The translations under genes were made by a program, and so were the position numbers. The notes below the pieces were generated by a model. The model worked only from the letters and a program-made list of their open reading frames with translations. It was not told where the DNA came from and did not search any database. A DNA stretch of 49,369 nt from a virus, in the IMG/VR virus record IMGVR_UViG_3300018063_000008, positions 1 to 49,369 of that record; one strand, 5' to 3'. Positions 6,133-45,961 of this stretch are shown here, piece after piece (positions within the stretch are counted from its first letter, which is position 1; each line of letters opens with the position of its first letter).

Positions 6133-6163
6133 AAAAAAGCGCCGCCCCATCGGGAGCCGCGCT
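6133..6163 (-). terminator. Leader hairpin with T-tract between the late promoter and terS
   Basis: On the minus strand 6163-6138 folds as a GC-rich stem (AGCGCgGC...GCgGCGCT, one mismatch, four-base loop) followed at once by TTTTTTGTTTT. It starts only about 10 bases after the expected transcription start of the promoter at 6179-6190. It can end transcripts coming from upstream and also those starting at that promoter. The same layout recurs at 28.2, 34.9, 37.2 and 45.9 kb. Confidence 0.75.
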
Positions 6164-6178
6164 CACTTCATGTAACAA

Positions 6179-6190
6179 ATTATAGCACAA
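6179..6190 (-). promoter_or_regulatory. Late promoter A (extended -10) for terS
   Basis: The minus strand reads TTTGTGCTATAAT: a perfect TATAAT with the TGn extension. No clear -35 is present, as is usual for extended -10 promoters. It lies just after the stop codon of the preceding small gene and is one of six minus-strand copies of the TGTGCTAyAAT element. Confidence 0.75.
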
Positions 6191-6195
6191 ATGTC

Positions 6196-6378
6196 TCAGT
6201 TGGCGTGAACATGCGGCACGCCGTACTGCCGTTCATAATTCTGCTTATAGGCCGCCCACTTGGTCGCCTTCGTTTGTTCAGCCCGCTCCAGCGCCAGTTG
6301 GAAGCTGGTCTTGGTCTTCAGTTTCGTGAACTCGTCCCGGTAACTTTTATAATCGAACTTCTGCAAATCCCACGTCAT
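6196..6378 (-). CDS. Small lysine-rich protein of unknown function (60 aa)
   Basis: Starts at ATG 6378 with GGAGGAG nine bases upstream; the TTG at 6396 lies on the ribosome-binding site itself. The protein is mostly helical and charged (KSYRDEFTKLKTKTSFQLAL) and ends YGVPHVHAN. No family is recognised. It lies between a terminator and the terS promoter, so its expression route is unclear. It may belong to the transcript of the RHH gene at 6453 by readthrough. Confidence 0.6.
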   Translation of the reverse strand: MTWDLQKFDYKSYRDEFTKLKTKTSFQLALERAEQTKATKWAAYKQNYERQYGVPHVHAN

Positions 6379-6401
6379 CGGCTGCCGCTCCTCCAATTAA
6401 A

Positions 6402-6430
6402 AACACCCATACATTTAGTGTACAGGTGTT
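6402..6430 (-). terminator. Intrinsic terminator after the RHH gene
   Basis: The minus strand reads AACACC, an inner TACA/TGTA stem, then GGTGTT followed by TTTAATT. It ends the transcript of the gene at 6453-6896. The plus-strand complement lacks a good T-run. Confidence 0.6.
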
Positions 6431-6452
6431 CTAATCCAGGATGGGCATGGGG

Positions 6453-6896
6453 TTATGACAGCGGCAGCGCCTTCAACACTTTATCAATTTGCCCGTCATC
6501 CATCGTCGGCTTGATGTACCCCACTGTCCAGTCATTGGTGTCCGCCGGGCGTCGCCGCTGCGATACCTCGACGGCGACATATTGATCCGGCCAGGCCAGG
6601 TCGTAGGTTTTGTGGCGCAGTCGGTATTCTACCTGGGGTTCAGGCAGTCCTAACGCCTGGATGCGGCGGATAACTCGTTCAAAAGTTTGCTGCTCAGTCA
6701 TACGGGTTCGCTTGCCTCCTCGCATCGGCGAAAACTCGATTACCTGACCCCGATTCTTAAAATAGTCGCGCAGCGCCATCCGAATCACTTCATTCTTTTC
6801 CGTCTTTAAGCGCTCCGCCTCGCTGGCAATGGCCGCGTCGCCTTCTTTCGTCACGCGCAGCGGGATGTCGCGGCTGTTCTCACCAGGCACTGCCAT
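6453..6896 (-). CDS. Ribbon-helix-helix protein fused to a possible PD-(D/E)XK-like domain
   Basis: 147 residues from ATG 6896, preceded by AGAGGTGA. Residues 8-50 look like a CopG/Arc-type ribbon-helix-helix: strand RDIPLRVT, helix AAIASEAERLK, turn, helix NEVIRMALRDYF. Residues 85-115 read VEYRLRHKTYDLAWPDQYVAVEV. The D..(A)WPD..VAVEV pattern resembles the core of VRR-NUC/DUF559-like nucleases (E90, D99, E110), although the usual Lys after the second acid is not obvious. The gene has its own promoter overlapped by two identical 18-bp repeats, the usual arrangement for RHH autorepression. The nuclease reading is tentative. Confidence 0.72.
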   Translation of the reverse strand: MAVPGENSRDIPLRVTKEGDAAIASEAERLKTEKNEVIRMALRDYFKNRGQVIEFSPMRGGKRTRMTEQQTFERVIRRIQALGLPEPQVEYRLRHKTYDLAWPDQYVAVEVSQRRRPADTNDWTVGYIKPTMDDGQIDKVLKALPLS

Positions 6897-6911
6897 TGTT
6901 TCACCTCTATT

Positions 6912-6967
6912 CATGTCAACTGACTTGAATATATCATGAAACATAAATCCATGTCAACTGACTTGAA
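6912..6967 (-). promoter_or_regulatory. Promoter with two identical 18-bp operator repeats
   Basis: The minus strand has TTGACA (6957-6952), an 18-base spacer and TATATT (6933-6928). The 18-mer CATGTCAACTGACTTGAA occurs at 6912-6929 and again at 6950-6967, 38 bases apart. Each copy contains the inverted repeat GTCA-AC-TGAC. One copy covers the -35 and the other sits at the transcription start. The RHH protein at 6453-6896 is the likely ligand. Confidence 0.72.
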
Positions 6968-6983
6968 CCCCTAGTATTTAGGG

Positions 6984-7012
6984 TACACAGGTCATATGAC
7001 TTGCTTTATACT
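6984..7012 (+). promoter_or_regulatory. Possible rightward promoter of the isolated gene at 7150
   Basis: TACACA (6984-6989), 17-base spacer, TATACT (7007-7012). The -35 matches consensus at four of six positions. It is the best candidate upstream of a plus-strand gene that stands alone among minus-strand genes. Confidence 0.4.
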
Positions 7013-7149
7013 TATATTTGTAAGGTTGAAACGACAACTGAATAGATAGAGAACGACGGGGATCGCCACCCCGCTACCAACAAAGGGTGATGAAAGAAAA
7101 GAAACGAAGCCTTACATATCTAATCGAAAGCGTAGGAAAAGGAGCAAAC

Positions 7150-7641
7150 ATGTCTACGCGAGCAGTGATAGCGGCCTATACCAATCGGGAGTTAGGCCAG
7201 TGGCGCGGGACTTACCATCATTTTGATGGTTATCCCAGCGGTTTAGGAAAGGCACTGTGGCAACTTTATCACGAATTTTATGAAGGGTTGCTTCCCGCTA
7301 TGGTCGAAATGCTGATCGACGCCCATCCGCAGGGTTGGTCAAGCATTATCGATGCCGACTGGAATCTGCGGCCAACGTGGATTGACGATAGGAGTGCGTG
7401 GTATAAAGCGGATAAGAAATTGCCGCCGCTGTCCTACAAATATCGTCCCGGTGAAGAGCATAACGAGTCGTACATCGACCAAACAACCGATAGCTGGCAA
7501 GAATGGGCATATGTGTTTGACCTTGAGCGTCAAACCATGACCGTTTTTGAGCGGATCGGCAGTTGGGACACGGTGAATTACCGGCAAGTTGCAACACTCC
7601 CTTTGTCAGAGAGTGAGCCAACCTGGACAGCTTTTGAGTAA
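7150..7641 (+). CDS. Self-contained accessory gene (moron-like), function unknown
   Basis: 163 residues from ATG 7150 with AGGAGCAAAC just upstream; an in-frame ATG at 7087 lacks a ribosome-binding site. The N-terminus reads STRAVIAAYTN then WRGTYHHFDGYPSGLG, a motif I recall from uncharacterised proteins of phages and plasmids. It is rich in Trp, Tyr and acidic residues and has no signal peptide. It is the only plus-strand gene in its neighbourhood and has a candidate promoter before it and a strong terminator after it. That isolation is typical of cargo expressed from the prophage. Function is not assignable. Confidence 0.75.
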   Translation: MSTRAVIAAYTNRELGQWRGTYHHFDGYPSGLGKALWQLYHEFYEGLLPAMVEMLIDAHPQGWSSIIDADWNLRPTWIDDRSAWYKADKKLPPLSYKYRPGEEHNESYIDQTTDSWQEWAYVFDLERQTMTVFERIGSWDTVNYRQVATLPLSESEPTWTAFE

Positions 7642-7651
7642 GTGATCCGCC

Positions 7652-7704
7652 GTTCCCGCAGTGTGTCAGCATTGCGGGAACACTTTTGTCTGAGGGAGAC
7701 AAAA
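7652..7704 (+). terminator. Strong terminator with a second hairpin
   Basis: GTTCCCGCA pairs with TGCGGGAAC (7652-7681), followed by ACTTTTG. A second stem, TTTTGTC with GACAAAA (7684-7704), follows directly. It ends the plus-strand gene at 7150-7641. Confidence 0.8.
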
Positions 7705-7762
7705 TGTGGTTAACCGGAAGCATACCACACAAATTCCCACATCGTCAATAACTTTATTTGAA

Positions 7763-7792
7763 TAGACTGCCTCGGTTGCCCAGGGCAGTCTA
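7763..7792 (-). terminator. Terminator-like hairpin at the end of the left early operon
   Basis: TAGACTGCC pairs with GGCAGTCTA around a 12-base loop. On the minus strand it includes the stop codon of the gene at 7790-7981 and is followed by TTCAAAT. The T-run is weak, so termination may be partial. Confidence 0.5.
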
Positions 7793-7981
7793 GGCGACAC
7801 ACCAGCGCTTCGGCGACGCCTTTGCCACCAGGCCGCGCGCTTCCAATTCGATCAGGTATTTACAGACTGTCCGCCGGGCAATCCCCAGCAATTCGGCCAG
7901 CAGTCCGGCCCGCACCGGCTTCTCTGGTCGGGCCTGCAACTCGCGTAATTTTGTTAGCACCACCTCGGCATAGGGCGACAT
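7790..7981 (-). CDS. Small winged-helix DNA-binding protein
   Basis: 63 residues from ATG 7981, preceded by an excellent GGAGG; an alternative ATG at 8005 has no ribosome-binding site. The sequence SPYAEVVLTKLRELQ, then RAGLLAELLGIARRTVCKYLIELEARGLV, is a classic winged helix-turn-helix with recognition helix RRTVCKYLIEL. It ends with a short wing (KRWCVA). It is the last gene of the left early operon. The likely role is a transcriptional regulator; its target is unknown. Confidence 0.75.
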   Translation of the reverse strand: MSPYAEVVLTKLRELQARPEKPVRAGLLAELLGIARRTVCKYLIELEARGLVAKASPKRWCVA

Positions 7982-8001
7982 AAGCCCTCCGTAATAATAC
8001 T

Positions 8002-8094
8002 TCATTCGATTGTCGCCGGATTGCTAACCGGAAACAAGCCTTTGCTCACCTTTTTCACAAACTTTTTGACTCGCTCAAACCGGAAGTTAACCAT
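8002..8094 (-). CDS. Possible 30-residue basic peptide
   Basis: An ATG frame in the gap between 8101 and 7981 encodes a very basic peptide (MVNFRFERVKKFVKKV then SKGLFPVS). Its stop overlaps an upstream ATG of the next frame as ATGA. No ribosome-binding site is visible, so it may simply be spacer sequence. Confidence 0.25.
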   Translation of the reverse strand: MVNFRFERVKKFVKKVSKGLFPVSNPATIE

Positions 8095-8100
8095 ATTGGG

Positions 8101-8373
8101 TTAGGCTTCATATTTCGGCAAACAGAGTACATACTCCGGCCACGCGAAATCATCATCTGCGATACTCAGAAGATACAGCCCTAAGTCATAGTAGTAATCA
8201 CTAAACATCACCTGCGGGTCTACGTGTCCGCACAGGGGGCAGGCGCAATGTTCCGTCCACTGATCTACTGGCACGATGTCGTAATCATCGCTCCCGAATG
8301 ACTGATCGCAGTTTTCGCAATAGCTGCCCTCGTCGTAATTGGAATGGCCGTTCACATCTAATCCAAATGTCAT
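8101..8373 (-). CDS. Small zinc-ribbon-like acidic protein (90 aa)
   Basis: Contains paired cysteines CENC (about residues 19-22) and CACPLCGH (about 43-50), spaced like a zinc ribbon, in a Tyr/Asp-rich background ending FAWPEYVLCLPKYEA. The start overlaps the PolX gene stop by four bases. Function is unknown. The metal site is inferred from cysteine spacing. Confidence 0.7.
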   Translation of the reverse strand: MTFGLDVNGHSNYDEGSYCENCDQSFGSDDYDIVPVDQWTEHCACPLCGHVDPQVMFSDYYYDLGLYLLSIADDDFAWPEYVLCLPKYEA

Positions 8374-9296: not shown

Positions 9297-9540
9297 GATT
9301 GACCTCTCTCTGCTGTTCGATCACATGCTGCGCCAGCGCCTGCAGCGTCGCCCACACGTTCAGGTAATACCGTCCGCGATAGGGCGGCATTGACTTATCT
9401 TTCACCACTTCCACGCCCCACAGCGCGCATAACTCGCGGATCGGCTCATCATTCCGCGATGTCGCCAGCACCTGCACCAGTGCGATATAACGCCGGTAAT
9501 CGTAGGCCGTCGCCGGTTCGATGTTCGGTTTGCGCCCCAT
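9289..9540 (-). CDS. Small protein of unknown function (83 aa)
   Basis: Begins MGRKPNIEPATAYDYRRYIA and is predicted helical, with a central strand EVVKDKSMP and a Tyr-rich YRGRYYLNVW segment. It overlaps the PolX start by eight bases and follows the HNH gene without a gap. No family is recognised. It is probably translated together with PolX. Confidence 0.65.
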   Translation of the reverse strand: MGRKPNIEPATAYDYRRYIALVQVLATSRNDEPIRELCALWGVEVVKDKSMPPYRGRYYLNVWATLQALAQHVIEQQREVNHE

Positions 9541-9861: not shown

Positions 9862-9878
9862 CCTGCCCCTCTCCTGGC

Positions 9879-9898
9879 TTTGCAAACATCTGTGCAAT
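9879..9898. promoter_or_regulatory. Early palindromic element, copy 1
   Basis: TTTGCA-AACATCTG-TGCAAT, a near-perfect inverted repeat with an 8-base spacer, lying between a terminator and the HNH start. Its core GCAAACATCTGTGC is identical to the 14 bases before the TATAAT of the late promoter at 45.95 kb, in the opposite genome orientation. Probably a binding site for a phage regulator. Confidence 0.5.
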
Positions 9899-9904
9899 TA
9901 AATG

Positions 9905-11216: not shown

Positions 11217-11912
11217 CTAATCCTCCCATAACTTTCGCTCGACTTCATTCAACGCCTCTCGCACCCGGTCAATCTTGATCTGCGCCTGGTTGCGCTCGTC
11301 CGGGCTGCGCGGGCGGCTGTCCAGTGAGCGCAGATAACTCCAATCGCCTTTGATTTCCTCCGGCATCAGCCGTTCTGGAGGGTCAATACTGCCTTTCATC
11401 GCCTCGCGCATTTGCGCCAGCGTCCAGGGTGGCGTTGCCTGCGCCGCCCGCTCAATCCAATGCCGCTGCTGATCTTCCGGCAATCCCATCACCAGCCGGT
11501 GATGGCTGAAACTCACGGTATGATTCCGAATCATACCGTGAACATGATTCGCCACTGAGAGATAAGCCTCGATGGTCGCTGGCTCGTATTCAAAGATGGC
11601 GGCGATTTGTTTGGCCGTCGCCTTCCATGTCCGGTTGGCATAGACCGCCCAATCGCCCACCCACCAGGATACCGCCGACTCCATGCCACGCAGCACCCTG
11701 CCAACATCCTGCCATTCGGCTTCGTCCGTGCCGTCGGGGATCGCCAGTGCTGTTGCCGACAGCACGAACTGTTTGTACACCAGCGCCCCATCCTCGCGTT
11801 TGACCAGGGCGTTATCCGGCATCACAGTCTGCGGCGCATCGCCGATGGCCCGATCCATGATCGAAAACGGATTGAGCTGCTGCTCTAGTTCGTCGCGGTT
11901 GCGGTTGACCAT
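11217..11912 (-). CDS. ParB/KorB-like DNA-binding protein
   Basis: 231 residues, starting inside the last 28 bases of parA. The centre (about 95-150) is helical with KQIAAIFEYEPATIEAYLS, then FSHHRLVMGLPEDQQRHWIERA. Paired helices with SFSHHR-LP-EDQ-W-ERA are typical of DNA-binding regions I associate with ParB-like and related phage proteins. The N-terminal CTP/nuclease motif of true ParB (GxRR) is not seen, so it is a divergent or specialised partner. A 29-bp palindrome lies inside its own coding sequence. Together with ParA it would form a partition system. Confidence 0.6.
   Translation of the reverse strand: MVNRNRDELEQQLNPFSIMDRAIGDAPQTVMPDNALVKREDGALVYKQFVLSATALAIPDGTDEAEWQDVGRVLRGMESAVSWWVGDWAVYANRTWKATAKQIAAIFEYEPATIEAYLSVANHVHGMIRNHTVSFSHHRLVMGLPEDQQRHWIERAAQATPPWTLAQMREAMKGSIDPPERLMPEEIKGDWSYLRSLDSRPRSPDERNQAQIKIDRVREALNEVERKLWED
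11513..11541. repeat. 29-bp perfect palindrome, candidate centromere (parS)
   Basis: Fourteen-base arms (TCACGGTATGATTC and its complement) flank a single central C. The palindrome lies in the ParB-like coding region and encodes the VHGMIRNHTV segment. It has no T-tract, so it is not a terminator. Centromeres of many par systems are palindromes in or near the parB gene. Confidence 0.5.
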
Positions 11913-12814
11913 CCCAATGCCTCCTGTACTTTCCCCACAATGTAGTGGATGTCGCGCGCCGCCTGTTTGTTAGGCGCGCTCTGGTAGACTGGGCGGTGCA
12001 GCTCTGTCGCCTCGACCCAATCCGTCCGCAACGTCACCGGATGCCACACCTTCCCTGGAAACGCTTCGCCCAGGTGTTTAATGTTGCGCTTGTGGATGTA
12101 GGTGTTGGCGCGGAACTTGTTCGGGATAATCCCCAGTAGTTCGGCATCGCGCTTAAGATACTCGCGCCGGTCTTGCTGCACATTGGCGATCTGCTGCGTG
12201 GCCGCTTTGATGCCATCAAAAGCCATCTGTTCGCACTCCGTCACGTAGAGGTAGGCATCAGCGGCCATGAACACCCAGGCGTCGAACAGGTTGAGCGTCG
12301 GGTTGGTGTCGATGAACACGGCATCCAATCGATACTGCGCGATCATGGTCTCGATCAAGCGCAGCAGCGCGAAGATTTTGCCGGGGCTGATCTCGCTTGG
12401 AATTTTGTAGGTACGATCCGACGACGGCAGCAGGAACAGCGCGCCCGTCGCTGGCGCGTAAGGCAGCGCATAGTTTGCCCCTGGCACTTCCAGCACCACC
12501 GACGCCAGCGCCGCGTTTTCGATCAGCGCCCGGAATAGTCCATTGTTCACCTCGCGGTCTTCGTCAATCCAGCAGCCCGCCGGAAAGCCTTCCAGATCGG
12601 GGATTTCCGTTCCGACAGGGATACGACGGCCATCTGGGCGCACCACCACATAATGGGTCATCCCCGTTATCAGCGCCGCGTGTCCCTGGCTGTCGGTGTC
12701 CACAATCCCGATGCGGTTGCCCAGCGCCGCCAGCAGCATGGCGATATGCTGGTTGATGGTCGATTTGCCGACGCCGCCTTTGCGGTTCATGGTTGCAATT
12801 ATCTTTGCACGCAT
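11885..12814 (-). CDS. parA: ParA-type ATPase
   Basis: 309 residues from ATG 12814; the longer frame to 13030 overlaps another gene antiparallel in phase and lacks homology. The deviant Walker box RKGGVGKST (residues 11-19) with two lysines is diagnostic of ParA/MinD ATPases, followed by IVDTDSQGHAAL (Walker A') and AVFIDTNPTLN (Walker B). A ParA in an integrase-bearing phage can partition an extrachromosomal prophage, or act in another positioning role. It pairs with the downstream ParB-like gene by overlap. A palindromic element (12792-12811) covers its first codons. Confidence 0.9.
   Translation of the reverse strand: MRAKIIATMNRKGGVGKSTINQHIAMLLAALGNRIGIVDTDSQGHAALITGMTHYVVVRPDGRRIPVGTEIPDLEGFPAGCWIDEDREVNNGLFRALIENAALASVVLEVPGANYALPYAPATGALFLLPSSDRTYKIPSEISPGKIFALLRLIETMIAQYRLDAVFIDTNPTLNLFDAWVFMAADAYLYVTECEQMAFDGIKAATQQIANVQQDRREYLKRDAELLGIIPNKFRANTYIHKRNIKHLGEAFPGKVWHPVTLRTDWVEATELHRPVYQSAPNKQAARDIHYIVGKVQEALGWSTATATN
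12792..12811. promoter_or_regulatory. Early palindromic element, weak copy at the parA start
   Basis: GTTGCA-ATTATCTT-TGCACG, with the same arm length and 8-base spacer as the other copies but weaker arms. It lies at codons 2-8 of parA, where the protein sequence is itself conserved, so this copy may be coincidence. Confidence 0.3.
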
Positions 12815-12861
12815 GTTACACTCTTTCTTGTCCTCTAGGACAATAAAAATAACGGTGAACG

Positions 12862-12880
12862 CCCCAGGTCTATTCTGGGG
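12862..12880 (-). terminator. Hairpin after the gene at 12870-13307
   Basis: The minus strand reads CCCCAG-AATAGAC-CTGGGG, with the stop codon in the loop, then CGTTCACCGTTATTTTTATTG. The T-run comes 10 bases late, so this is a weak or partial terminator in front of parA. Confidence 0.4.
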
Positions 12881-13307
12881 TGTTTGCTTTATCGGTATTA
12901 TTCCGATTGAGATACCACTCGTATGTTTCGGGCTGCTCACCGCATTTCGCGCAGGAATACAGGAACGCTGCATATCCGGCCTTTCTCTCGACTTCCTGCT
13001 CCAACTCCCCGATCCGCGCCGTCTGTTCATTCATGAACGCACTCGTCGCCTCGGCCTGCCGGAAAGCGTCATCGATGGCGCGCTGCATCCCGGCCCTGTA
13101 CTCGGCCTCCATCGCGTCGATGTGATCCAGCAGCGCGCTGACATCATGTAGGCTATTGGATATAACGACATCGCTGTCGGTTTCACGAGCAGGAATAGTG
13201 GTACGGAATCGCTCACCAGCAGTCAATGAGTTCACATGGTTGATCGCCTGAGCCTTGCGGTCTCGAATTTCCGCAAAATTCTGCTCACTCAATTTCTTCG
13301 TGTCCAC
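12870..13307 (-). CDS. Coiled-coil protein with a C-terminal Cys pair (145 aa)
   Basis: Starts at GTG 13307 behind AAGGAG. Residues 55-110 are a charged heptad-like helix (HIDAMEAEYRAGMQRAIDDA), followed by CAKCGEQP (about 119-126). It overlaps the upstream gene by 23 bases. Family unknown. The layout suggests a self-associating accessory protein. Confidence 0.68.
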   Translation of the reverse strand: MDTKKLSEQNFAEIRDRKAQAINHVNSLTAGERFRTTIPARETDSDVVISNSLHDVSALLDHIDAMEAEYRAGMQRAIDDAFRQAEATSAFMNEQTARIGELEQEVERKAGYAAFLYSCAKCGEQPETYEWYLNRNNTDKANTPE

Positions 13308-15281: not shown

Positions 15282-15392
15282 TTAGGGGCAGTCTGGTGCG
15301 TCGTTGAAAATCACGCCAGGCCGCCAGTTTTACGGTAGATGTACATTTACTTCTGGCCCCGCCACCTTGCCCGATCAGCAGGGTGGTTTTAT
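15282..15392 (+). ncRNA. Candidate structured small RNA antisense to the replication-gene leader
   Basis: The stretch has no gene. A plus-strand transcript from the promoter at 15246-15274 would start just before GGGGCAGT (15285). It would fold into several hairpins, including CTGG-cGT/ACG-CCAG and GTA-ATGTACAT-TAC types, and end at a proper terminator: CCACCTTG with CAGGGTGG (15362-15386), then TTTTATTT. GGGGCAGT (15285-15292) can also pair with ACTGCCCC (15397-15404), closing the whole element. It covers the untranslated leader of the minus-strand replication gene, so antisense control of initiation is possible. It is not a tRNA: there is no T-loop. Confidence 0.45.
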
Positions 15393-15518
15393 TTCCCACT
15401 GCCCCGTTGTGTGTCGCTCCAGGCTCATGAACGGGCGGTTAAGATTTCACGAATTCCCCGTTTGATCGATTAGAAGTTCCAAATTCTGTAACAAAATGTT
15501 ATTTCCTGGCTGCACAGC

Positions 15519-15547
15519 TTGCGTATATTTGTACTAAATACTAAATT
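15519..15547 (+). promoter_or_regulatory. Promoter of the integrase gene
   Basis: TTGCGT (15519-15524), 17-base spacer, TAAATT (15542-15547), about 30 bases before the integrase start. Two overlapping copies of TACTAAA lie in the spacer and -10 region and may be a protein site. The region from 15393 to 15518 shows nothing else that I can identify. Confidence 0.5.
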
Positions 15548-15577
15548 CTTCCTGCGCAGCTTCGGAAAGGAACTGTT

Positions 15578-17752: not shown

Positions 17753-18001
17753 TCAATTACTTGTCGGCTCCGGCGATTCCTTTGGTTCATATATCAACAG
17801 GTCGCCGACATTGCAGCCAAAATATGCACAGAAAGCCTCGATAGTATCAGCGTCAAATCGCCGCATCTTGCCTTCAAGCCAGTTGTATATCGTAGTGCGT
17901 GACACACCCGTAGCCTCTGACAGCGCCGATACATCGATGACGGCGTTGGTTTCGTTTTGCTTTTTGCCAATCAGTGCGGGTAAGCGATTCAGCACTGGCA
18001 T
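17753..18001 (-). CDS. Small Cro/CI-type repressor
   Basis: 82 residues from ATG 18001, preceded by AGGAGA. Residues 24-66 form the XRE helix-turn-helix: VSALSEATGVSRTTIYNWLE, then ADTIEAFCAYFGCNVGDLL. The size equals the DNA-binding domain alone; there is no peptidase or dimerisation domain, so it resembles Cro or short plasmid-type repressors. It is divergent from the right early operon and has its own good promoter. It is probably the lysogeny regulator, but induction would not be by LexA-like self-cleavage. Confidence 0.85.
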   Translation of the reverse strand: MPVLNRLPALIGKKQNETNAVIDVSALSEATGVSRTTIYNWLEGKMRRFDADTIEAFCAYFGCNVGDLLIYEPKESPEPTSN

Positions 18002-27875: not shown

Positions 27876-28187
27876 TCAAGACGAAGGCGGCGGAATAGGC
27901 ACAAGGAATATCCCATTTGCCCGTCCGAACAACTCATAGAAATAATTGGTCGCATCCAATGGGCTGCCGAAGGTGCGGCTGCAATCGCCCTGAGCGCAGA
28001 TGCGATTCACTTGATCCGTTGGCCCGCTGATGACCATCCGATATTGCCCGTTCACCGCTTCACTGGTCATACTGACACCGGGTTGTCCCGAAGTTTGCGC
28101 CAGGGTTACGCCGACCTGGAAACCGACAAAAAATCCGATCAGTAGTGCGCACACCACTGCTGCAATCATCAGCCGTTTGATGCCCAA
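27876..28187 (-). CDS. Membrane-anchored small protein, first of the lysis cassette
   Basis: About 103 residues from TTG 28187, five bases after AGGAGG; the frame can be extended to 28208 but that overlaps the leader T-tract. Residues 6-30 are a membrane segment (MIAAVVCALLIGFFVGFQVG). The rest is soluble and beta-rich, with CAQGDCSRTFG. It follows late promoter B and its hairpin, so expression should be separately controlled. Function is unknown. Confidence 0.68.
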   Translation of the reverse strand: MGIKRLMIAAVVCALLIGFFVGFQVGVTLAQTSGQPGVSMTSEAVNGQYRMVISGPTDQVNRICAQGDCSRTFGSPLDATNYFYELFGRANGIFLVPIPPPSS

Positions 28188-28210
28188 AATGCCCTCCTCC
28201 TGCTCCAAAT

Positions 28211-28243
28211 AAAAACGCGGTCTGTCCCCTTCGACAGGCCGCG
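28211..28243 (-). terminator. Leader hairpin with T-tract between late promoter B and the lysis cassette
   Basis: CGCGG-C-CTGTC pairs with GACAG-A-CCGCG around GAAGGG (28243-28216), then TTTTTATTTGG. It follows the promoter by about 12 bases. Same layout as at 6.1, 34.9, 37.2 and 45.9 kb. Confidence 0.75.
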
Positions 28244-28255: not shown

Positions 28256-28267
28256 ATTGTAGCACAA
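28256..28267 (-). promoter_or_regulatory. Late promoter B
   Basis: The minus strand reads TTTTGTGCTACAAT. It shares CGAAATTTTGTGCTA with the repressor promoter. It lies just after the stop of the tail gene at 28284. Confidence 0.7.
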
Positions 28268-31364: not shown

Positions 31365-32242
31365 TAGTAATACCCCTCAAAATACAACATGCGGATGGTG
31401 GCCGCGTCGGTTGAATTGGCGAAGCGAATGCGAACTGTATTGGCGCCCGGATACAGTCGGAACCAGGATGGGTGCAGAAAGCTGAAGGCGCTGGTATACG
31501 CATCAACACTGTTCTTCTTGACCAACCAGGCGCGGCAGTTTATTTCCAATACGTCGCTGGCAACCAGTGTGCCGGTGTAGCTCACCTGATCCACTACCTC
31601 GCCGTTCACCACCCGCTGAATGGTCGGATTCGTGACGGTCTGCCCAGCGCCGCAGGAAATCTTGATACGCGGCTGGATGATGGCCGAACCAACCGGCGTC
31701 ACCGTTTGATCGGTCAGCTCGCCGGAGATCGCCCAGGCCGGTGCCGTGCCACCCCACACCGAACCATCACCCCAATTAAAAGCGCCCCACAAAACCGCTT
31801 CTGTCCCTTGCGCGTACCACATCGGGTCAGGAACGTGAAAGTTAACCGTCACCGGCTGCCACAAATCGGTATGTTTCGCCACTTTTTCGTTGATCGGGAT
31901 CGAAGCGACGCGCCCCCAGCACCAGCGCGGCGGCAGGGCATTGTCCGACGGCTGCATAAAGAGTTGTTTGCGCCCAAAACCACGCATCTTATAAACCGCA
32001 TCGCGCAGCGCTGTCATACCTTCGCGCGTGTCGCTGATCAGTGTGAACTCCACCGACACCTTGCCAATCTCCGCCGGTGAAACCCCCAGGCCGAATTCAT
32101 CAAAGCCGCCGTCCGCCCCCGGCAGTTTGCTGGTGAGCGTAATCAGGGAGCCAAAATTACCATTCAGGGTTTGGATCGTATCTGGGAAGGTATACACCTG
32201 CGATCCCGACCCAAACCGGGTGACACGCTGTAAGATGGTCAT
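31364..32242 (-). CDS. Distal tail protein (Dit-like)
   Basis: 292 residues. LPGADGGFDEFG and VSVEFTLISD near the start, DPMWYAQGTEAVLWG in the middle, and LEINCRAWLVKKNSVDAYTS with FRLYPGANTVRIRF at the end. This is the Sipho_tail/Dit pattern. It is between the tape measure and the fibre and would form the ring at the tail tip. The stop overlaps the fibre start as TAATG. Confidence 0.85.
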   Translation of the reverse strand: MTILQRVTRFGSGSQVYTFPDTIQTLNGNFGSLITLTSKLPGADGGFDEFGLGVSPAEIGKVSVEFTLISDTREGMTALRDAVYKMRGFGRKQLFMQPSDNALPPRWCWGRVASIPINEKVAKHTDLWQPVTVNFHVPDPMWYAQGTEAVLWGAFNWGDGSVWGGTAPAWAISGELTDQTVTPVGSAIIQPRIKISCGAGQTVTNPTIQRVVNGEVVDQVSYTGTLVASDVLEINCRAWLVKKNSVDAYTSAFSFLHPSWFRLYPGANTVRIRFANSTDAATIRMLYFEGYY

Positions 32243-34914
32243 CCCATACTCCTTTTCGCGTCGGCAAATTTCTCGGCGAAGGTTCTGGCGTTGCGTTCTA
32301 AGTTCGGCTCATCCCGCAGCATTTCAATCGGCACTTGCAGGATGATGGTGTCGCCGCCACCGCCACCCGCGCCCAGCAGCTTGTCGGCATTCGGGATAAA
32401 AGTGCCGTTGCTGTTGGGGATAAAGAGTTCCGGCTGCGCGCCACGCCCAATCAGATAGGGCACATCGGCCATGCCCGCCCCGCCAGAGTCGCGAAACTGG
32501 ATACCGAGACTGGCCGCCGTTGGCGTGCCACCCGACCCCTCGACCGATACACCGCCGCCGCCGCCGAGTTTCTCCAATTCCCGCAGGGCATTGCCTACGC
32601 CGTCAATAATTTTTTGAATGAAATCGACCACTGGTTTGATAAAGGTGTCGCCAATCCATTGGAAGCTGTCACGGAACCAGTTATAGACCTTTTCCAGCGA
32701 TGGCCGGATAGCTTCCCATAAGCCGCTGATGAGCGTGACAAGTGGGGTGATGATATTGTCTTTGAACCAGACCACCGCCTCGTTAATTTTGGGCAGCGCC
32801 GTCGTCACAAACCAGTCGTAGACTTTGGCTAACACCGGCTCGATAACGATCCATAAGCCTTCCAGAATATCGACGGCGGGCTGTAATACATTGTCTTTGA
32901 ACCAGACCACCGCCTCGTTAATTTTGGGCAGCGCCGTCGTCACGAACCAGTCAAACACATCTTGCAGCACCGGCCCCACCGCTTCCCATATTCCCTGAAG
33001 CAGAGTGATGGCAGGCTGTAATACATTCTCCATGAACCAGCGCAGCGCATCGGTAATCCAGGGCAGTCCCTCGGCCATGAACCAGTTGAATAAGGCCGAC
33101 AGCGCCGGGCTGACGACTTCCCAGATGTCCATCAGCATATTGACAATGCCTTCAACCGCCGGGCGCAAGATGGTATTGAAGAAGTCCACCACCAGCGGCA
33201 GCACGTCCGCGATCACCCAGTTGGCGAACGCCTGTAACCCCGGCTGGATCGCTGTCCAGAAGTCAACCAGCAGGCCGACGAAGCGCTCGACAATGGGGAT
33301 GACTACTTCTTGAATGAAACTGACTACACCTCCCAGTGCATCTTCAATTGCTTGACGGAAGGCTAAAAACTGTTCGGGATTTTGAATCACGCCCAACCCG
33401 ACCAGGAAGTTAGCAATTCCGCTGGAAAGTGATCCAACAATGGCATCTACCACGCTGCCGGTATCATTCAAAATGTCGGTAAAACTACTAAAGCCCATTA
33501 CCGCCAATTGCACGGCGTTTACAATCGTTTCAATCACCGGTTGCAGGATGTCACGGATACCCAGGAAATTTGTTTGGAAGGCCAGAAACAACAGCGCCGC
33601 CGCGCCGATAATCAGGCCGATGGGCGACAGCACCAGCCCCAGGATCGTCCCCAGGCCGCTGAACAGGCCGCCCACTGCCGAAACTGCTTTGCCAATAATC
33701 AGGAGTGTTGGCCCGACCACCACCAGCACGGCCAGGATTTGCGTAATTTGCCCTGCCAGTTCCGGGTTGGCTTGTATCCAGGCTGTCAGGCTGTTGACCA
33801 CGCCGATGAGCTTGTCCACCATCGGCGCCAGGACATCATTCATCAGCGGCGTCAGGGCTTCGATCTGTAAAGTCTGGATCGATCCCGTCAGCGACTCGAC
33901 CTTACCGGCGAAGGTGTTCATGAACTCAGCGGCAATCGTCGCGGCATCCGGCGCGGCTGCCATTTGGTCGCGCATCGCGCCGATACCACCGGCTGCCCGT
34001 AAAGCATTCAGCCCGGTGATGCCGAAGCTGCCTGCCAATTGGTACATGATTTCATTTTGTTCTTCGACGGGCAGCTTATCGAGGGCAGTATCGAGTTCGC
34101 CTAGAACCGTGTTGAAATCGCGGGTATTGCCATTGGCATCGTACAGACTAAGACCAAGTTTTTTCCATGCGCCAGCCGCTTCTTCAGTGGGACGGGTCAT
34201 TTGGGTCAGGACAGTTTTAAGGAGTGTTCCGCCTTCTGCGCCCATAATGCCGTTCTGAGCAAAGACGGCTAATGTCGCGCTGGCATCCTCGATACTGAGT
34301 CCGTACTGTGCGGCAACTGGCCCCACATTACCCATCGCTAGTCCGAGATCGCCAACCTCGGCGCGGCTGGCATTGGCTGCCCGTGACAGCGCGTCGGCTA
34401 CCCGTCCAGCATCCTCAGCCTTCAACCTGAACTGTGCCAAAGCCGAACTGGTGATTCCTGCCGCTTGTGCCAAATTCAGGTTGCCCGCGCCCGCCAAATT
34501 GAGGACGGCTGGCATGGTCGCCATCGCCTGCTCAACCGATTGACCACTCTTGAGCAGGTCGAGCATCCCGGCGCTGGCATCCAACGCACTAAACTTGGTA
34601 TCCGCGCCCCACTTGAGTGCCGCCTGCCGCACCCGTTCCAGGTCTTGCGGGCCGAGTTCGCCAAAGACTCGTATCTGGTTGATGACGGTATCGAAATCAC
34701 TGGCAGCTTTCAGCCCGGTCAGGCCGAAGGCCAGCACCGGCGCGGTTAACTGCGTCAGGCTGGAGCCGATGCTGGAGATTGCGCCGCCCAGGTCTTGCAA
34801 GCCGCCGCCGATGGATTGGCGCGCGTTCTGAACCGCCGAGTCATCAAGGCTTAAGACTATTCGGCCATAAGCCGTACCTAACGAATAGCCCTCACTGCCA
34901 AAATCCATACGCAC
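32239..34914 (-). CDS. Tail tape measure protein
   Basis: 891 residues, starting at GTG 34914 or ATG 34908. Residues 30-330 match the TP901-1 tape-measure core (SDFDTVINQIRVFGELGPQD, ADALSRAANASRAEVGDLGL). Several hydrophobic helical segments follow at about 380-450. Then come tandem repeats of about 45 residues (PKINEAVVWFKDN, TALPKINEAV twice nearly identical in DNA) with conserved W/F positions, and a Gly-rich end. Length of this protein sets tail length, implying a tail near 130 nm by the usual rule. Preceded by late promoter C and its hairpin. Confidence 0.95.
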   Translation of the reverse strand: MRMDFGSEGYSLGTAYGRIVLSLDDSAVQNARQSIGGGLQDLGGAISSIGSSLTQLTAPVLAFGLTGLKAASDFDTVINQIRVFGELGPQDLERVRQAALKWGADTKFSALDASAGMLDLLKSGQSVEQAMATMPAVLNLAGAGNLNLAQAAGITSSALAQFRLKAEDAGRVADALSRAANASRAEVGDLGLAMGNVGPVAAQYGLSIEDASATLAVFAQNGIMGAEGGTLLKTVLTQMTRPTEEAAGAWKKLGLSLYDANGNTRDFNTVLGELDTALDKLPVEEQNEIMYQLAGSFGITGLNALRAAGGIGAMRDQMAAAPDAATIAAEFMNTFAGKVESLTGSIQTLQIEALTPLMNDVLAPMVDKLIGVVNSLTAWIQANPELAGQITQILAVLVVVGPTLLIIGKAVSAVGGLFSGLGTILGLVLSPIGLIIGAAALLFLAFQTNFLGIRDILQPVIETIVNAVQLAVMGFSSFTDILNDTGSVVDAIVGSLSSGIANFLVGLGVIQNPEQFLAFRQAIEDALGGVVSFIQEVVIPIVERFVGLLVDFWTAIQPGLQAFANWVIADVLPLVVDFFNTILRPAVEGIVNMLMDIWEVVSPALSALFNWFMAEGLPWITDALRWFMENVLQPAITLLQGIWEAVGPVLQDVFDWFVTTALPKINEAVVWFKDNVLQPAVDILEGLWIVIEPVLAKVYDWFVTTALPKINEAVVWFKDNIITPLVTLISGLWEAIRPSLEKVYNWFRDSFQWIGDTFIKPVVDFIQKIIDGVGNALRELEKLGGGGGVSVEGSGGTPTAASLGIQFRDSGGAGMADVPYLIGRGAQPELFIPNSNGTFIPNADKLLGAGGGGGDTIILQVPIEMLRDEPNLERNARTFAEKFADAKRSMG
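32758..33060 (-). repeat. Internal tandem repeats in the tape measure gene
   Basis: A segment beginning TTTGAACCAGACCACCGCCT is repeated at 32761 and 32896, 135 bases (45 codons) apart, with about 60 bases nearly identical. Related, more diverged units follow to about 33060. Recent duplication changes tape length by a fixed step. Confidence 0.8.
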
Positions 34915-34921
34915 CCCAAAT

Positions 34922-34953
34922 AAAAACGCGGCCTCGTCTTTCGACGGGCCGCG
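34922..34953 (-). terminator. Leader hairpin with T-tract between late promoter C and the tape measure gene
   Basis: CGCGGCC-CGTC-GAAA-GACG-A-GGCCGCG (34953-34927) with a GAAA loop, then TTTTTATTTGG. The stem is nearly the same sequence as that at 37.2 kb. Confidence 0.8.
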
Positions 34954-34969: not shown

Positions 34970-34981
34970 ATTGTAGCACAG
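34970..34981 (-). promoter_or_regulatory. Late promoter C
   Basis: The minus strand reads AAACATCTGTGCTACAAT. It lies 10 bases after the stop of the HNH gene and shares ACATCTGTGC with the early palindromic elements. Confidence 0.72.
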
Positions 34982-36569: not shown

Positions 36570-37172
36570 TTATGCCGCGAAGAAAGCCAGGAAGTCGGCG
36601 CCACTGGCCGGGGCTGTCCACAGCGCCGCCGTTTCGTAGGTGCGCACGGTCATCAGGTACAACACACTGCTGATGGCAACCGGGATGGCATAACCCTCGA
36701 TCTCGGACATATTGAATTTGTTGGTTTTGCCGTCGGCGGTGTATTTGGGATACTTATCCAACTTACACCCCTGCAAGCCGATGGCCGCCACGCCGCCGTC
36801 GTCGGTAGGCGTCAAGCCAATCGCGCCGAAGTAGGGCAAACCTGCGCCACCCGCCGGGAAACGGGTACGCCGCCGCTGGTTGGGCGTCAGGTTGCTGGTG
36901 TAATTCGACACCCCGGCGGTGACGGCCAGGAAATCGACATCGACACCGCCCATACCGATTTTGATTTTGGCCCCGCGCGCCACCGACAGCAGGCGCATGG
37001 TTACGCCGTAACCCGGCAGCTTATCCGTGTCGTGTTCCGGGTCAACTTCCAACGTCTGCCCGATGGCCGCCGAGATAGGGGTTCCATAAGTATTGGCAGT
37101 AATATTGTAAGCTGCCACCAGTAAATCGGTTAAAGTGTAGGATACTTCGCCGAATTCGCTGCTCCCAGGAAT
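36570..37172 (-). CDS. Major tail protein
   Basis: About 183-201 residues. From GTG 37118 the sequence begins AAYNITANTYGTPISAAIG. The frame is open to 37172 and adds IPGSSEFGEVSYTLTDLL, which looks like real protein. No ATG/GTG/TTG exists there, only an ATT/ATC run behind AAAGG. Features typical of tail-tube proteins are the beta-rich GAKIKIGMGGVDVDFLAV region and the C-terminal YAIPVAISSVLYLMTV. It follows late promoter D. I cannot decide between the short GTG start and a rare ATT/ATC start. Confidence 0.82.
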   Translation of the reverse strand: MPGSSEFGEVSYTLTDLLVAAYNITANTYGTPISAAIGQTLEVDPEHDTDKLPGYGVTMRLLSVARGAKIKIGMGGVDVDFLAVTAGVSNYTSNLTPNQRRRTRFPAGGAGLPYFGAIGLTPTDDGGVAAIGLQGCKLDKYPKYTADGKTNKFNMSEIEGYAIPVAISSVLYLMTVRTYETAALWTAPASGADFLAFFAA

Positions 37173-37192
37173 GATGATTTGCCTTTCACTCT

Positions 37193-37231
37193 AAAAACGA
37201 AAAGCGCGGCTCGTCTCTCGACGGGCCGCGC
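37193..37231 (-). terminator. Leader hairpin with T-tract between late promoter D and the major tail gene
   Basis: GCGCGGC-CCGTC-GAGA-GACGA-GCCGCGC (37231-37204), then TTTTCGTTTTTAG. Stem very like that at 34.9 kb. Confidence 0.78.
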
Positions 37232-37246: not shown

Positions 37247-37258
37247 ATTATAGCACAA
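37247..37258 (-). promoter_or_regulatory. Late promoter D
   Basis: The minus strand reads TACTTGTGCTATAATATT. It lies 24 bases after the stop of the GIY-YIG gene and just upstream of the hairpin at 37204-37231. Confidence 0.72.
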
Positions 37259-37974: not shown

Positions 37975-37994
37975 CCTTCTTATGGTTGCTCATG

Positions 37995-38021
37995 CTCCGA
38001 GGTGTTTGCGCACCGTCGGAG
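37995..38021 (-). other. Leader hairpin of the GIY-YIG gene
   Basis: CTCCGA pairs with TCGGAG, with an inner GGTG/CACC around CGCAAA. It lies between promoter F and the gene, with no T-run. It corresponds in position and loop sequence to the hairpin at 35839-35863. Confidence 0.6.
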
Positions 38022-38038
38022 TTTCCTTTTCTCCCTCA

Positions 38039-38050
38039 ATTATAGCACAG
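38039..38050 (-). promoter_or_regulatory. Late promoter F, before the GIY-YIG gene
   Basis: The minus strand reads AAAATCTGTGCTATAAT, the same element as promoters A-E, but followed by the endonuclease hairpin rather than by a T-tract hairpin. It suggests the mobile gene took over an existing late promoter. Confidence 0.7.
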
Positions 38051-38059
38051 ATTTTCGCT

Positions 38060-43069: not shown

Positions 43070-43082
43070 ACTCCGTGAGGTT

Positions 43083-43109
43083 AAAAGGGGAGGGTTTCAA
43101 ACCCTCCCC
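43083..43109 (-). terminator. Terminator after the major capsid gene
   Basis: GGGGAGGGTTT pairs with AAACCCTCCCC (43109-43087), then TTTTAACC. It lies after the capsid gene and before the sugar cassette, so it can hold the cassette at a lower level than the capsid protein. Confidence 0.85.
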
Positions 43110-43135
43110 TAGAACGTCAAACGAGGATTGTCCGG

Positions 43136-44266
43136 CTACCCAATGGAGGGATTCGTCCAGTTGCCAGTGGCATCCAGGAAGGCTGCCGCGCCATTGGTAC
43201 GGTCTTCGCCCACGCTCACGCCGAACTCGAATTCGATGTTCAGCTTCTTCAGCGGGTATTTGTCATCACCGGTCTTCTCGGCCATAATCGCCAGCCCGAA
43301 GCCTTCGTCGGGATGGACGCGCACTGCAATCGAGTTGCGCTGGTCGAGTTGGCCGTAGCTCTTGACCATCGCGCCGTAGTTGGCCGGAACCCGGTTGTAA
43401 GCCCGCAGTTCGATCAGCCCATAATCGCTCTGGAAGTAGCCGAATGCGCCATCCGTCACCATCGGCGTGCCGCGCGCGAACAGTTGGTTGCCGCTCGACT
43501 CCGCGCCCCGATCGATCACCGTCACCACATCCGCCGTGAACTTAACAAAACCCGTCAGTACTGCGTAGGCTGCCACGTCAGCGCGGCTCACCAGTGCGGT
43601 GAATGGCGCGGTGTGCCCATGTTCTTCCAGCGTTTCCGCCATCTCGTTCAGGAGTTCGTCGCGCTGTTTGGTGTCGCTGTCGATGCCCAGGAAGTGATCA
43701 TGGCTTGTGTCGAAGGCTTGTCCACCATAAGCCGCTGGCACAAAATCGACATTGCCGCCGCTGCCACGCACAAACGGCACATCATAGCCGCTGGCACCAA
43801 TCGCGTTTTCGGTGTTGGTGAATAGGCGGGTGAACAGCTTGCGTTCAAAGCGCCACTTCGCCCGGTTGACGATGACGCGCAGTGTACTCTCGATTTGCGG
43901 CTGCCGGGCATCCCGGAAATAGCGCCGCGAGCCGCCAATCGCCCCGCCGTATGGCCGCAGGTCGATCTGATGGCCGATGGTCGTCCCGTGCATCATGTCC
44001 GGGTCGTCCATGTCGGTGATTTCCGGCAGTTCTGTCACTGTCCCGCCGTCGGGGTACTCGAAATGATCCATCTCGGTGATCGAGAACAACCAGCCCCACT
44101 TTTGCACAAATTCCTGATTAATGCCGCCCAATGCCGCCGCTGTGCGCGCGATGAACTGCTGCACCGTCACGCCTTCACGCAGTCGCCATTGCGCCAGCTT
44201 AACCCCATCCACGCCAGTGGGGAGTGCCCGTAGGGCGATACTCATTGGCCCCAAAACTTCTGCCAT
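43136..44266 (-). CDS. Major capsid protein (HK97 fold)
   Basis: 376 residues. The N-terminal arm and E-loop region (WRLREGVTVQQFIARTAAAL, YPDGGTVTELPEITD) lead to the P-domain with long helix RAKWRFERKLFTRLFTNTEN and the A-domain strands GNQLFARGTPMVTDG and YGLIELRAYNRVP. The end reads KKLNIEFEFGVSVGE. It follows the decoration protein and is followed by a terminator, as for a highly expressed gene. The size is typical. No N-terminal scaffold domain is present, because a separate protease/scaffold gene precedes it. Confidence 0.86.
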   Translation of the reverse strand: MAEVLGPMSIALRALPTGVDGVKLAQWRLREGVTVQQFIARTAAALGGINQEFVQKWGWLFSITEMDHFEYPDGGTVTELPEITDMDDPDMMHGTTIGHQIDLRPYGGAIGGSRRYFRDARQPQIESTLRVIVNRAKWRFERKLFTRLFTNTENAIGASGYDVPFVRGSGGNVDFVPAAYGGQAFDTSHDHFLGIDSDTKQRDELLNEMAETLEEHGHTAPFTALVSRADVAAYAVLTGFVKFTADVVTVIDRGAESSGNQLFARGTPMVTDGAFGYFQSDYGLIELRAYNRVPANYGAMVKSYGQLDQRNSIAVRVHPDEGFGLAIMAEKTGDDKYPLKKLNIEFEFGVSVGEDRTNGAAAFLDATGNWTNPSIG

Positions 44267-44281
44267 GTCTTATTCCTCCCC

Positions 44282-44719
44282 TTAACTATTGCTGGCTGGC
44301 GCTTGCAGGCCAGGCAGAACGAACAGGACGCCATCGCTTTCGGCGTAACCGACTGGCGCTGTCCACGTACCCGCGCCCGTTGGGGCGGTTTCGGTGATCG
44401 CGCCCGCCGTACTGCTTTGAAACTGACGCACTCCGGGCGTCAGACCGCTGAATCCGGCCACCGGCCCGAAAACACAAACCGTGATCCCGTCACCGGCCAA
44501 CGCCTGGGTTTCACCTTCGCGCGAGACCGCCGTGACCACGCCGCGAACATTGGCGATCAGCGCGCTCACGTTAGCATCCCCCTGCGCCACTTTGGGCAGG
44601 ATGTTGTCCTGGTCGTCGGCGATGTAGAACGTGTCGCCCATGTTAATGGTCGCATTGGCGACGGCTTGCCGTAGAGTCGCGCCTTCCAGGGCGCGGACTT
44701 TCGCTGCTGTAACAGCCAT
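44282..44719 (-). CDS. Capsid decoration (cement) protein-like
   Basis: 145 residues, small beta-rich protein with an N-terminal AKVRALEGATLRQAVANATI, a central VRGVVTAVSREGETQALAGD and a Gly/Thr/Ala-rich end. This fits small head-decoration proteins encoded between protease and capsid. The 14- and 15-base gaps to its neighbours hold only ribosome-binding sites. Confidence 0.72.
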   Translation of the reverse strand: MAVTAAKVRALEGATLRQAVANATINMGDTFYIADDQDNILPKVAQGDANVSALIANVRGVVTAVSREGETQALAGDGITVCVFGPVAGFSGLTPGVRQFQSSTAGAITETAPTGAGTWTAPVGYAESDGVLFVLPGLQAPASNS

Positions 44720-44733
44720 TGTCTAAACCCTCC

Positions 44734-45867
44734 CTATATACCCAGCGATGCGCGCGCTTCGGCGATGGTTTCCGGTTTGTTCAGGTCTTTGAATGGGTTA
44801 TTTCCGTCCCGGTCTTTGCCGCCGGTGAAAGCGTTCGGCCCGGCCTGATTAGCCACCAGCGCTTCGGCGATGAGTTTGATGTCCTCGCGCGCCTGCAATT
44901 CAGCCACACGCGACTTGGCCTTGTCGGCGCTGTCCACCGTCCCCATCTGGGCGATGATGGTCGGGCGCAGGGCTTCCAGTTCAACTGCTTTGACCGCATC
45001 CGCGATCCAGCCGTCAATCTGAGCCTGCTGATTCTTCTGGCGCAGGTCACGCAACTCTGCGATCAGCTTATTCAGCTTCTCAACCGGGGTCGCGCCCTGG
45101 AATTCGGCCACCAACTGTTCGATGCTGGACAGGGTTTCAACCTTGCCCTTCATCTCGGCGATCAGGCTGTCCTTCTCGCCGACTTTGGTCGTTAAGGCGC
45201 TCACCTGCGACAAGGCATCCACCTTACCCTGGATGAGTTCGCTGACCAGTTTCGAGTCCACTTGCTCGGTCATCGGGTTATCCTCCCCGTTCTTATGGTC
45301 GTTGGAATCGTCTTTCATCTCGGCGGTGAGATGCGGCACTGCTGCCGCATCCGGGTGCGACACCCGATCAGGATGGCCCAGGTCTACGCTCTCCAAATTC
45401 ATGTCGGAGAGACCCTTGTTACCCTTCACGCCGTAGACACTCGTCCCCACCCGCGCGCGGGCGCGTTTGGCGTCGGCCAAAAATTCGCGCACGTCCTGCG
45501 CGTATTTCGGCACATACGCCTTGCCCCACACCAGCCCGGTTTTCTCGTCCAGCATCGCGCCGAGCCAGCGCAGGACAGGTAGACTGTAATCAGTGGAGCG
45601 TTTTTCGGCGGGGAGGTGGCCGAGATTGCCATCGGGTCGTTTGGTGTTGATCTCCTGCACCACGCGCAGGGCGCTGGGTTTATCCCAGGGCAGGCCGTTC
45701 TGCGAACGAACGCCCACTTTCAACAAGGGCAGCGTGACGAACATCGGTTTGTTCGCCGGATCATCGCTGCCAGAGCGCCACTCCTCGACCTCGATCTCCG
45801 ATGAGAGCGGTACGTCGGGCGGCTTACCCGCAAAAGACCAGGACATCTCGGCTAAAACTTCAGGCAT
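44734..45867 (-). CDS. Capsid maturation protease fused to scaffold
   Basis: 377 residues from ATG 45867 (AAGGGG upstream). The N-terminal 185 residues have the prohead protease layout: DGNLGHLPAEKR with a possible catalytic His, ARVGTSVYGVKG with a possible catalytic Ser, and DLGHPDRVSHPDAA. The C-terminal 190 residues are a charged coiled coil (KVETLSSIEQLVAEF, KLIAELRDLRQKNQ) as in scaffolds. It is cleaved away during head expansion. The catalytic assignment is by motif and is tentative. It follows late promoter E. Confidence 0.78.
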   Translation of the reverse strand: MPEVLAEMSWSFAGKPPDVPLSSEIEVEEWRSGSDDPANKPMFVTLPLLKVGVRSQNGLPWDKPSALRVVQEINTKRPDGNLGHLPAEKRSTDYSLPVLRWLGAMLDEKTGLVWGKAYVPKYAQDVREFLADAKRARARVGTSVYGVKGNKGLSDMNLESVDLGHPDRVSHPDAAAVPHLTAEMKDDSNDHKNGEDNPMTEQVDSKLVSELIQGKVDALSQVSALTTKVGEKDSLIAEMKGKVETLSSIEQLVAEFQGATPVEKLNKLIAELRDLRQKNQQAQIDGWIADAVKAVELEALRPTIIAQMGTVDSADKAKSRVAELQAREDIKLIAEALVANQAGPNAFTGGKDRDGNNPFKDLNKPETIAEARASLGI

Positions 45868-45883
45868 CCTAACCCCTTAAACG

Positions 45884-45926
45884 AAAACGCGACCTGCACA
45901 CCCCAAGAGAGGGTATACAGGCCGCG
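45884..45926 (-). terminator. Leader hairpin between late promoter E and the protease gene
   Basis: A long stem, CGCGG-CCTGTATACCC with GGGTGTGCAGG-TCGCG (including G-T pairs), then TTTTCGTTTAAG. It is longer than the other leader hairpins but in the same position. Confidence 0.72.
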
Positions 45927-45949
45927 CCTGTTTATTTCATATATTTTGT

Positions 45950-45961
45950 ATTATAGCACAG
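45950..45961 (-). promoter_or_regulatory. Late promoter E, before the head operon
   Basis: The minus strand reads TTTGCAAACATCTGTGCTATAAT, combining the left half of the early palindromic element with a perfect -10. An additional TTGACA lies 20 bases upstream of the -10, too far for a standard -35. Confidence 0.75.

Follow-up and report, generated by a model that had tools for sequence, protein, structure and literature searches.

Five extended -10 promoters, each followed directly by a terminator-type hairpin, precede late genes of a probable Anaerolineae phage

Promoter and Terminator Elements at Five Late Genes

At five sites (A to E) in the 49,369-bp virus record IMGVR_UViG_3300018063_000008, an extended -10 promoter is followed directly by a GC-rich hairpin with the form of an intrinsic terminator, and then by the start of a late gene. 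The whole record, referred to below as the window, represents a complete circular phage genome with a 123-bp terminal repeat, and its minus strand carries every late gene. Each site is read, with about even confidence, as a promoter-attenuator cassette that would be opened late by trans-acting antitermination, as with lambda Q or AlpA, the same step being repeated at five promoters.

On the minus strand, all five sites had the order stop codon, TGTGCTAYAAT, 12-23 nucleotides (nt), GC-rich hairpin, T-tract and start codon; the five sites, the coordinates and the element order proposed in an initial annotation of this DNA were borne out by reading the sequence. The exact motif TGTGCTAYAAT occurred six times in the window, always on the minus strand, against a chance expectation of 0.04 on average and 1 at most (200 first-order Markov simulations with the same dinucleotide make-up). 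The set of five sites stands, and was extended by the sixth exact copy (site F, 38049-38039), which has no terminator and lies ahead of the leader of a GIY-YIG homing endonuclease gene with a different hairpin (promoter copy at 38039..38049, minus strand).

Terminators were accepted with a folding free energy (dG) ≤ -10 kcal/mol plus a d'Aubenton-Carafa-type score (d) > 0, and the hairpins of A to E were the only minus-strand terminators of the entire window to pass. The form of an intrinsic terminator, a GC-rich stem abutting a T-run, was present at 5/5 sites (dG -16.8 to -30.8 kcal/mol; d 24-43), with at least four T directly adjoining the stem at each. The hexamer of the 5' arm (within GCGCGGC) was identical at all five sites, whereas the 3' arms differed.

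All five promoters match the motif exactly, and all features that follow are on the minus strand. Site A combines promoter TGTGCTATAAT (6179..6189) with a terminator at 6128..6163 (hairpin AGCGCGGCTCC-CGAT-GGGGCGGCGCT, 6163-6138, and T-tract TTTTTGTTTT; dG -17.7, d = 36) ahead of terS, the small terminase gene (5589..6116, ATG at 6116; phrog_51, E 1e-21). At site B, promoter TGTGCTACAAT (28256..28266) and terminator 28207..28243 (hairpin 28243-28216, T-tract TTTTTATTT; dG -16.8, d = 24) precede a gene with a TTG start (27876..28187), whose product of ~100 residues has a hydrophobic N-terminal stretch and no family match. Site C has promoter TGTGCTACAAT (34970..34980) and terminator 34918..34953 (hairpin CGCGGCCCGTC-GAAA-GACGAGGCCGCG, 34953-34927, T-tract TTTTTATTT; dG -21.4, d = 43), and is followed by the tape measure gene (32239..34908, ATG at 34908; phrog_1533, E 2e-91). 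Promoter TGTGCTATAAT (37247..37257) and terminator 37193..37231 (hairpin 37231-37204, T-tract TTTTCGTTTTT; dG -21.7, d = 30) make up site D, ahead of the major tail gene (36570..37172; phrog_4971, E 4e-07; N-terminus aligned with the homologue in the related phage L094). Site E, with promoter TGTGCTATAAT (45950..45960) and terminator 45879..45926 (17-bp stem 45926-45888, T-tract TTTTCGTTT; dG -30.8, d = 26), precedes a protease-like gene (44734..45867), so named from its position, phrog_3219 and a sub-threshold match to Mu-like_Pro; an additional gene (44282-44719) separates it from the major capsid gene (43136-44266; phrog_3990).

The PHROG profiles agree with the earlier identification of terS, tape measure and major tail. 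The product called a protease in the initial annotation is encoded ahead of the capsid gene, as would suit that name, with Mu-like_Pro reached only below threshold, and the gene after site B, earlier called the first lysis gene, was not confirmed as such, having the hydrophobic stretch but no family match. At the start of the major tail gene (37170-37175), no in-frame ATG, GTG or TTG follows the upstream stop before the conserved N-terminal sequence is reached (MPGTNSF.. in L094), and the gene likely starts at ATT or ATC.

Conservation of the Cassettes in Related Phages

Pattern and homology searches yielded four related phage records: L262 (the same as G003; terL 71% and capsid 57% identical to the window proteins), L094/L264 (capsid 61%), L088/L266 (portal 57%) and G008 (capsid 59%). 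Proteins of the cassette-bearing relatives were 45-71% identical to those of the window, and a further contig, L087, closely resembled L262 in the region of the protease gene. The cassette was kept ahead of terS (window, L262, L266/L088), ahead of the protease-like gene at the start of the capsid operon (window, L264/L094, L087) and ahead of the major tail gene (window, L264). The terS promoter of L262 reads GTGATATAAT, and that site was not picked by the search pattern. Stem arms folded better with their own partners (mean -21.7 kcal/mol) than when swapped between sites (-13.9 kcal/mol), with 5 of 90 swaps equally good; the stem changes between sites are compensatory. A search of relatives for the combined pattern and for covariation of the stems had been suggested earlier as a check, and both retention at terS, protease and tail, and compensating stems were found.

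Among 50 hairpins at the loci of this family, an extended -10 was located 10-19 nt upstream of nine, compared with 0.08 expected, and within 30 nt downstream of none. The promoter preceded the hairpin at all ten family sites, with a spacing from -10 to hairpin of 10-16 nt at 9/10.

The capsid protein alone, used as query against viral contigs and GenBank phages, gave no match, and a two-sequence capsid profile retrieved G008 and Anaerolineae prophages. At 80 IMG/VR terminase-homologue loci, mostly unrelated elsewhere, the promoter motif was present in none and a promoter followed by a terminator was rare. Matches from pattern scans of genomes were mostly unrelated or due to chance.

Host, Promoter Type and Lifestyle

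The capsid profile matched 6 of 396 genomes belonging to the same class as an Anaerolineales genome, and none of 400 genomes sampled evenly from the phylum, the six matches being 28-36% identical to the window protein. From these capsid homologues, the host is probably a member of the Anaerolineae (Chloroflexota). In the six capsid-bearing genomes, TGTGCTAYAAT was enriched about ninefold (94 copies vs. 11 for the reversed control). Fifty-one copies were inspected in five genomes (four of the six plus the Anaerolineales genome G007). A good -35 accompanied 5/51; the lack of a clear -35 at the phage sites, pointed out earlier, is expected for an extended -10 of the TRTGn type. A hairpin with T-run followed the motif in 2/51 host-genome copies, one of them known beforehand from a pattern search, vs. 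5/6 copies in the phage (Fisher p = 3e-5). By these counts, TGTGCTAYAAT is a host-type extended -10 with a dispensable -35, the host being the one assigned through the capsid. Because the motif is enriched in host genomes but seldom followed there by a hairpin, the peculiarity of the phage, judged on the same genomes, is the addition of a terminator to a host-type promoter.

Similar leaders were also seen outside the phage. In three genomes of Oscillospiraceae/Clostridia (L146, L185, L195), TGTGCTATAAT, GGCGGCAGGATGCGGTGCGTCTTGCCGCT, a T-run and a start codon precede a gene with a radical-SAM-like N-terminus; the arrangement is kept in all three and represents a host gene whose leader resembles those of the phage. 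In Roseiflexus and other Chloroflexota genomes (L124, L144, L167, L200), TGTGCTATAAT followed by a GC-rich hairpin forms the leader of an elongation factor P-like gene.

The phage is probably temperate, given its genes for an integrase and for a Cro/CI-type repressor (17753-18001), and host-type late promoters in such a phage would need silencing. Plasmid-type partition genes, ParA-like (11885-13030, minus strand) and ParB-like (11217-11912, minus strand), occur beside the integrase in this apparently integrating phage, and are present in L262 too.

Leader Geometry and Readthrough

The -10 and the hairpin are 15, 12, 16, 15 and 23 nt apart at A, B, C, D and E, which refines the 10-25 bases proposed initially. 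With transcription taken to start ~7 nt past the -10, an assumption on which all RNA lengths given here depend, the RNA ahead of the hairpin would be ~6-17 nt long in the window and 4-17 nt across the ten family sites, and the predicted terminated RNA ~42-64 nt. The stem is separated from the start codon by 18-31 nt, and by sequence inspection no further promoter fits there. The mRNAs of all five genes must therefore include the terminator, and because every mRNA crosses it, the genes need some readthrough; of the direct arguments for some form of readthrough, this one is the strongest.

Cis attenuation at the five leaders is unlikely, since few nucleotides precede the hairpin, there is no room at the window sites for a leader open reading frame or peptide, and alternative pairing of the pre-hairpin RNA with the 5' arm is short and weak (-6.3 kcal/mol at best among ten sites). 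Ordinary forms of it (leader peptide, riboswitch, T-box) were rejected because of the little RNA ahead of the hairpin and the absence of an Rfam match. A scan of the window with Rfam gave nothing at the gathering threshold, and a weak match to L20-leader at site D was discarded as reflecting no more than a hairpin plus T-run. The initial annotation had proposed an antitermination or attenuation step at each late gene: the terminator within the 5' leader and the need for readthrough stand, whereas attenuation in cis, with ~6-17 nt to work with, is the unlikely part. After dropping it, a trans-acting antiterminator or incomplete termination remains.

The short distance between start and hairpin would also suit a different function, in which a 5'-terminal hairpin stabilises the mRNA or aids translation ahead of highly made structural proteins, like the T7 gene 10 leader, an architecture with which the cassette sequences are compatible. 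The hairpin lies ~4-10 nt from the predicted start at 9/10 sites and 17 nt from it at E, and the U-rich stretch continues into the ribosome-binding site. Such a leader is nevertheless considered improbable, as a stabiliser does not need the run of at least four T abutting the stem at each site, and as hairpin and T-run are kept in relatives where no promoter adjoins them.

Proposed Control of the Late Genes

Because host-type promoters of essential late genes are each followed directly by a good terminator, late antitermination in trans would be the simplest reading. The vegetative RNA polymerase of the host would initiate ~7 nt downstream of the extended -10 and, unaided, would halt in the T-tract after ~42-64 nt. 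In the prophage and during early infection, this halt would silence terS, the capsid/protease genes, the tail tube and tape measure genes and the unit that follows B. At the late stage, an antiterminator acting in trans, most probably a phage protein that loads on or close to the promoter, would open all five leaders, and would also carry long transcripts started upstream across the internal terminators.

By inspection, the only element common to the sites that might serve for loading within the promoter was an A-rich stretch before TGTGC. A small winged-helix protein encoded in the block before terS (7790..7981, minus strand) may be a candidate trans factor, and L262 encodes a counterpart at the corresponding position (15334-15567), 42% identical over 33 residues. 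A more specific proposal is advanced tentatively, and is on the doubtful side: in this lineage of Chloroflexota phages, at least five reiterated cassettes may be opened jointly by a promoter-loaded antiterminator of a new type, such as the winged-helix protein, with stops ~45 nt from the start, closer than in known Q-dependent leaders. The arrangement was not found described as a repeated feature of late genes in the open-licence literature. If true, late control by antitermination would extend to phages of a phylum for which phage genetics is very sparse, and would take a distributed design with one switch at five promoters rather than one long operon. The composite motif would be a handle for finding new antiterminators, and the question is open to reporter or in vitro transcription assays.

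Several observations weigh against control by antitermination. Profile searches of the scanned genes gave no match to Q, AlpA, NusG-like, P7 or gp39 proteins, which leaves room for divergent or novel ones. Several relatives had been retrieved with a pattern containing GCGCGGC, and the constancy of their 5'-arm hexamer is thus not independent evidence. In G008, the protease-like and tape-measure genes have a hairpin with T-run but no -10, and the tail gene has neither -10 nor hairpin in front; the tape measure gene of L094 likewise has neither promoter nor hairpin in front. The initial annotation had named hairpins kept in relatives that had lost the promoter as evidence to the contrary, and this was found in one relative, G008, at two positions. 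At the protease site of L262, the 3' arm and T-tract are lost relative to L087. The distant prophages (L288-L293; capsid 28-36% identical) had no cassette at the scored sites and plain terminators only. Given these prophages and the exceptions in G008, L094 and L262, promoter and terminator can, on sequence comparison, evolve apart, with the complete cassette confined to a subgroup.

As a separate observation, L262 (~4490-4620) and L087 (7960-8080) are near-identical contigs from one metagenome that differ there by a 19-nt deletion, either a true difference or a misassembly at the hairpin.

The promoterless terminators of G008 would also be expected if the hairpins simply ended transcription of the upstream unit, a promoter having come to lie in the same gap by chance or compaction and without joint function; the position of the promoters, right behind the stop codon of the preceding gene, agrees with this too. 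It is held to be very improbable: the promoter comes first at each of the ten family sites, with no case of the opposite order within 30 nt, the spacing is narrow (9/10), the hairpin seldom follows the promoter copies of the host, and essential genes would be silenced by such an arrangement.

Leaky terminators with no regulator of their own, which would act by partial termination as a fixed damping and reduce readthrough from the upstream gene, are rated as rather unlikely. They would accord with the lack of a recognised antiterminator, with the plain hairpin and T-run that lie immediately ahead of late genes in G008, after the capsid gene in L262 and in the remote prophage L293, and with the interruption of certain T-tracts (TTTTCGTTT). 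Yet d values of 24-43 predict good terminators, the perfect 17-bp stem of E exceeds the needs of damping, and damping requires no promoter ahead of the stop, which is present at 5/5 sites.

Comparison With Known Systems

In lambda, and with the Q proteins of phages 21 and 82, the pR'-tR' region has a host-type promoter active without an activator and a terminator in the leader, and the late genes need readthrough; lambda has a single late promoter and a leader of ~194 nt. The window resembles it in the host-type promoter and leader terminator before late genes, but has five promoters and predicted leaders of ~42-64 nt, and neither a member of the Q families nor a pause-inducing element was recognised. 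The put sites of HK022 are RNA structures near a phage transcript start that affect termination, paired stem-loops that act in cis and suppress downstream terminators, whereas the window has one hairpin per site, itself of terminator form.

Both AlpA and lambda Q get polymerase past leader terminators, and in the AlpA regulon of Pseudomonas aeruginosa one DNA-binding antiterminator serves two promoters with intrinsic terminators just ahead of the first gene (PMC7969949). The likeness lies in several promoters each with a terminator close before the first gene. The AlpA element, however, lies between -35 and -10, while only the extended -10 and the A-rich stretch are present in the window, and no AlpA-like protein was recognised. 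According to the part of the Xp10 report drawn on here (PMC6624301), the phage protein P7 makes the host polymerase bypass intrinsic terminators before late genes; the target of P7 is, in that account, the polymerase itself, none of the scanned genes could be recognised as P7-like, and that part mentions no series of promoter-terminator cassettes in Xp10.

The ESAS of cluster K mycobacteriophages recurs ahead of some of the genes and contains both a promoter and an inverted repeat; the inverted repeat (17-bp) lies inside the promoter motif, upstream of the conserved 13-bp start-associated GGGATAGGAGCCC, and the element accompanies non-structural genes (PMC3203893, PMC11373665). A repeated promoter element with an inverted repeat before some genes is common to both, but the leaders of A to E lack the combination of GGGATAGGAGCCC and a 17-bp inverted repeat, and no terminator T-run is described for ESAS. 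SAS/ESAS and put, which the initial annotation had offered as comparable but not the same, are indeed not close matches, given leaders without SAS/ESAS repeats and a single hairpin of terminator form.

Additional Observations

An RHH-like gene (6453-6896), for which no phage homologue was found, has a consensus promoter at 6912-6980 (minus strand) with two copies of TTCAAGTCAGTTGACATG, at the -35 and after the -10, and this pair is likely an autoregulatory operator.

The promoter TGTGCTATAAT without a terminator occurred at homing-endonuclease leaders of two phages (window 38039-38049 and L268 ~9277). A hairpin with the loop GGTGCGCNAACACC was found in the window at 37995-38021 and 35856 (loop GTGCGACAACACC at the latter; both minus strand), in L268 at ~9250 (minus strand) and in L271 at 700-760. 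These hairpins sit before free-standing homing endonuclease genes (in the window, of the GIY-YIG and HNH/endonuclease VII types) and gave no Rfam match. Their outer stems vary and compensate (CTCCGA/TCGGAG, CCCCTG/CAGGGG, GGGTAG/CTACCC), and the hairpin may be a previously undescribed RNA motif that accompanies such genes.

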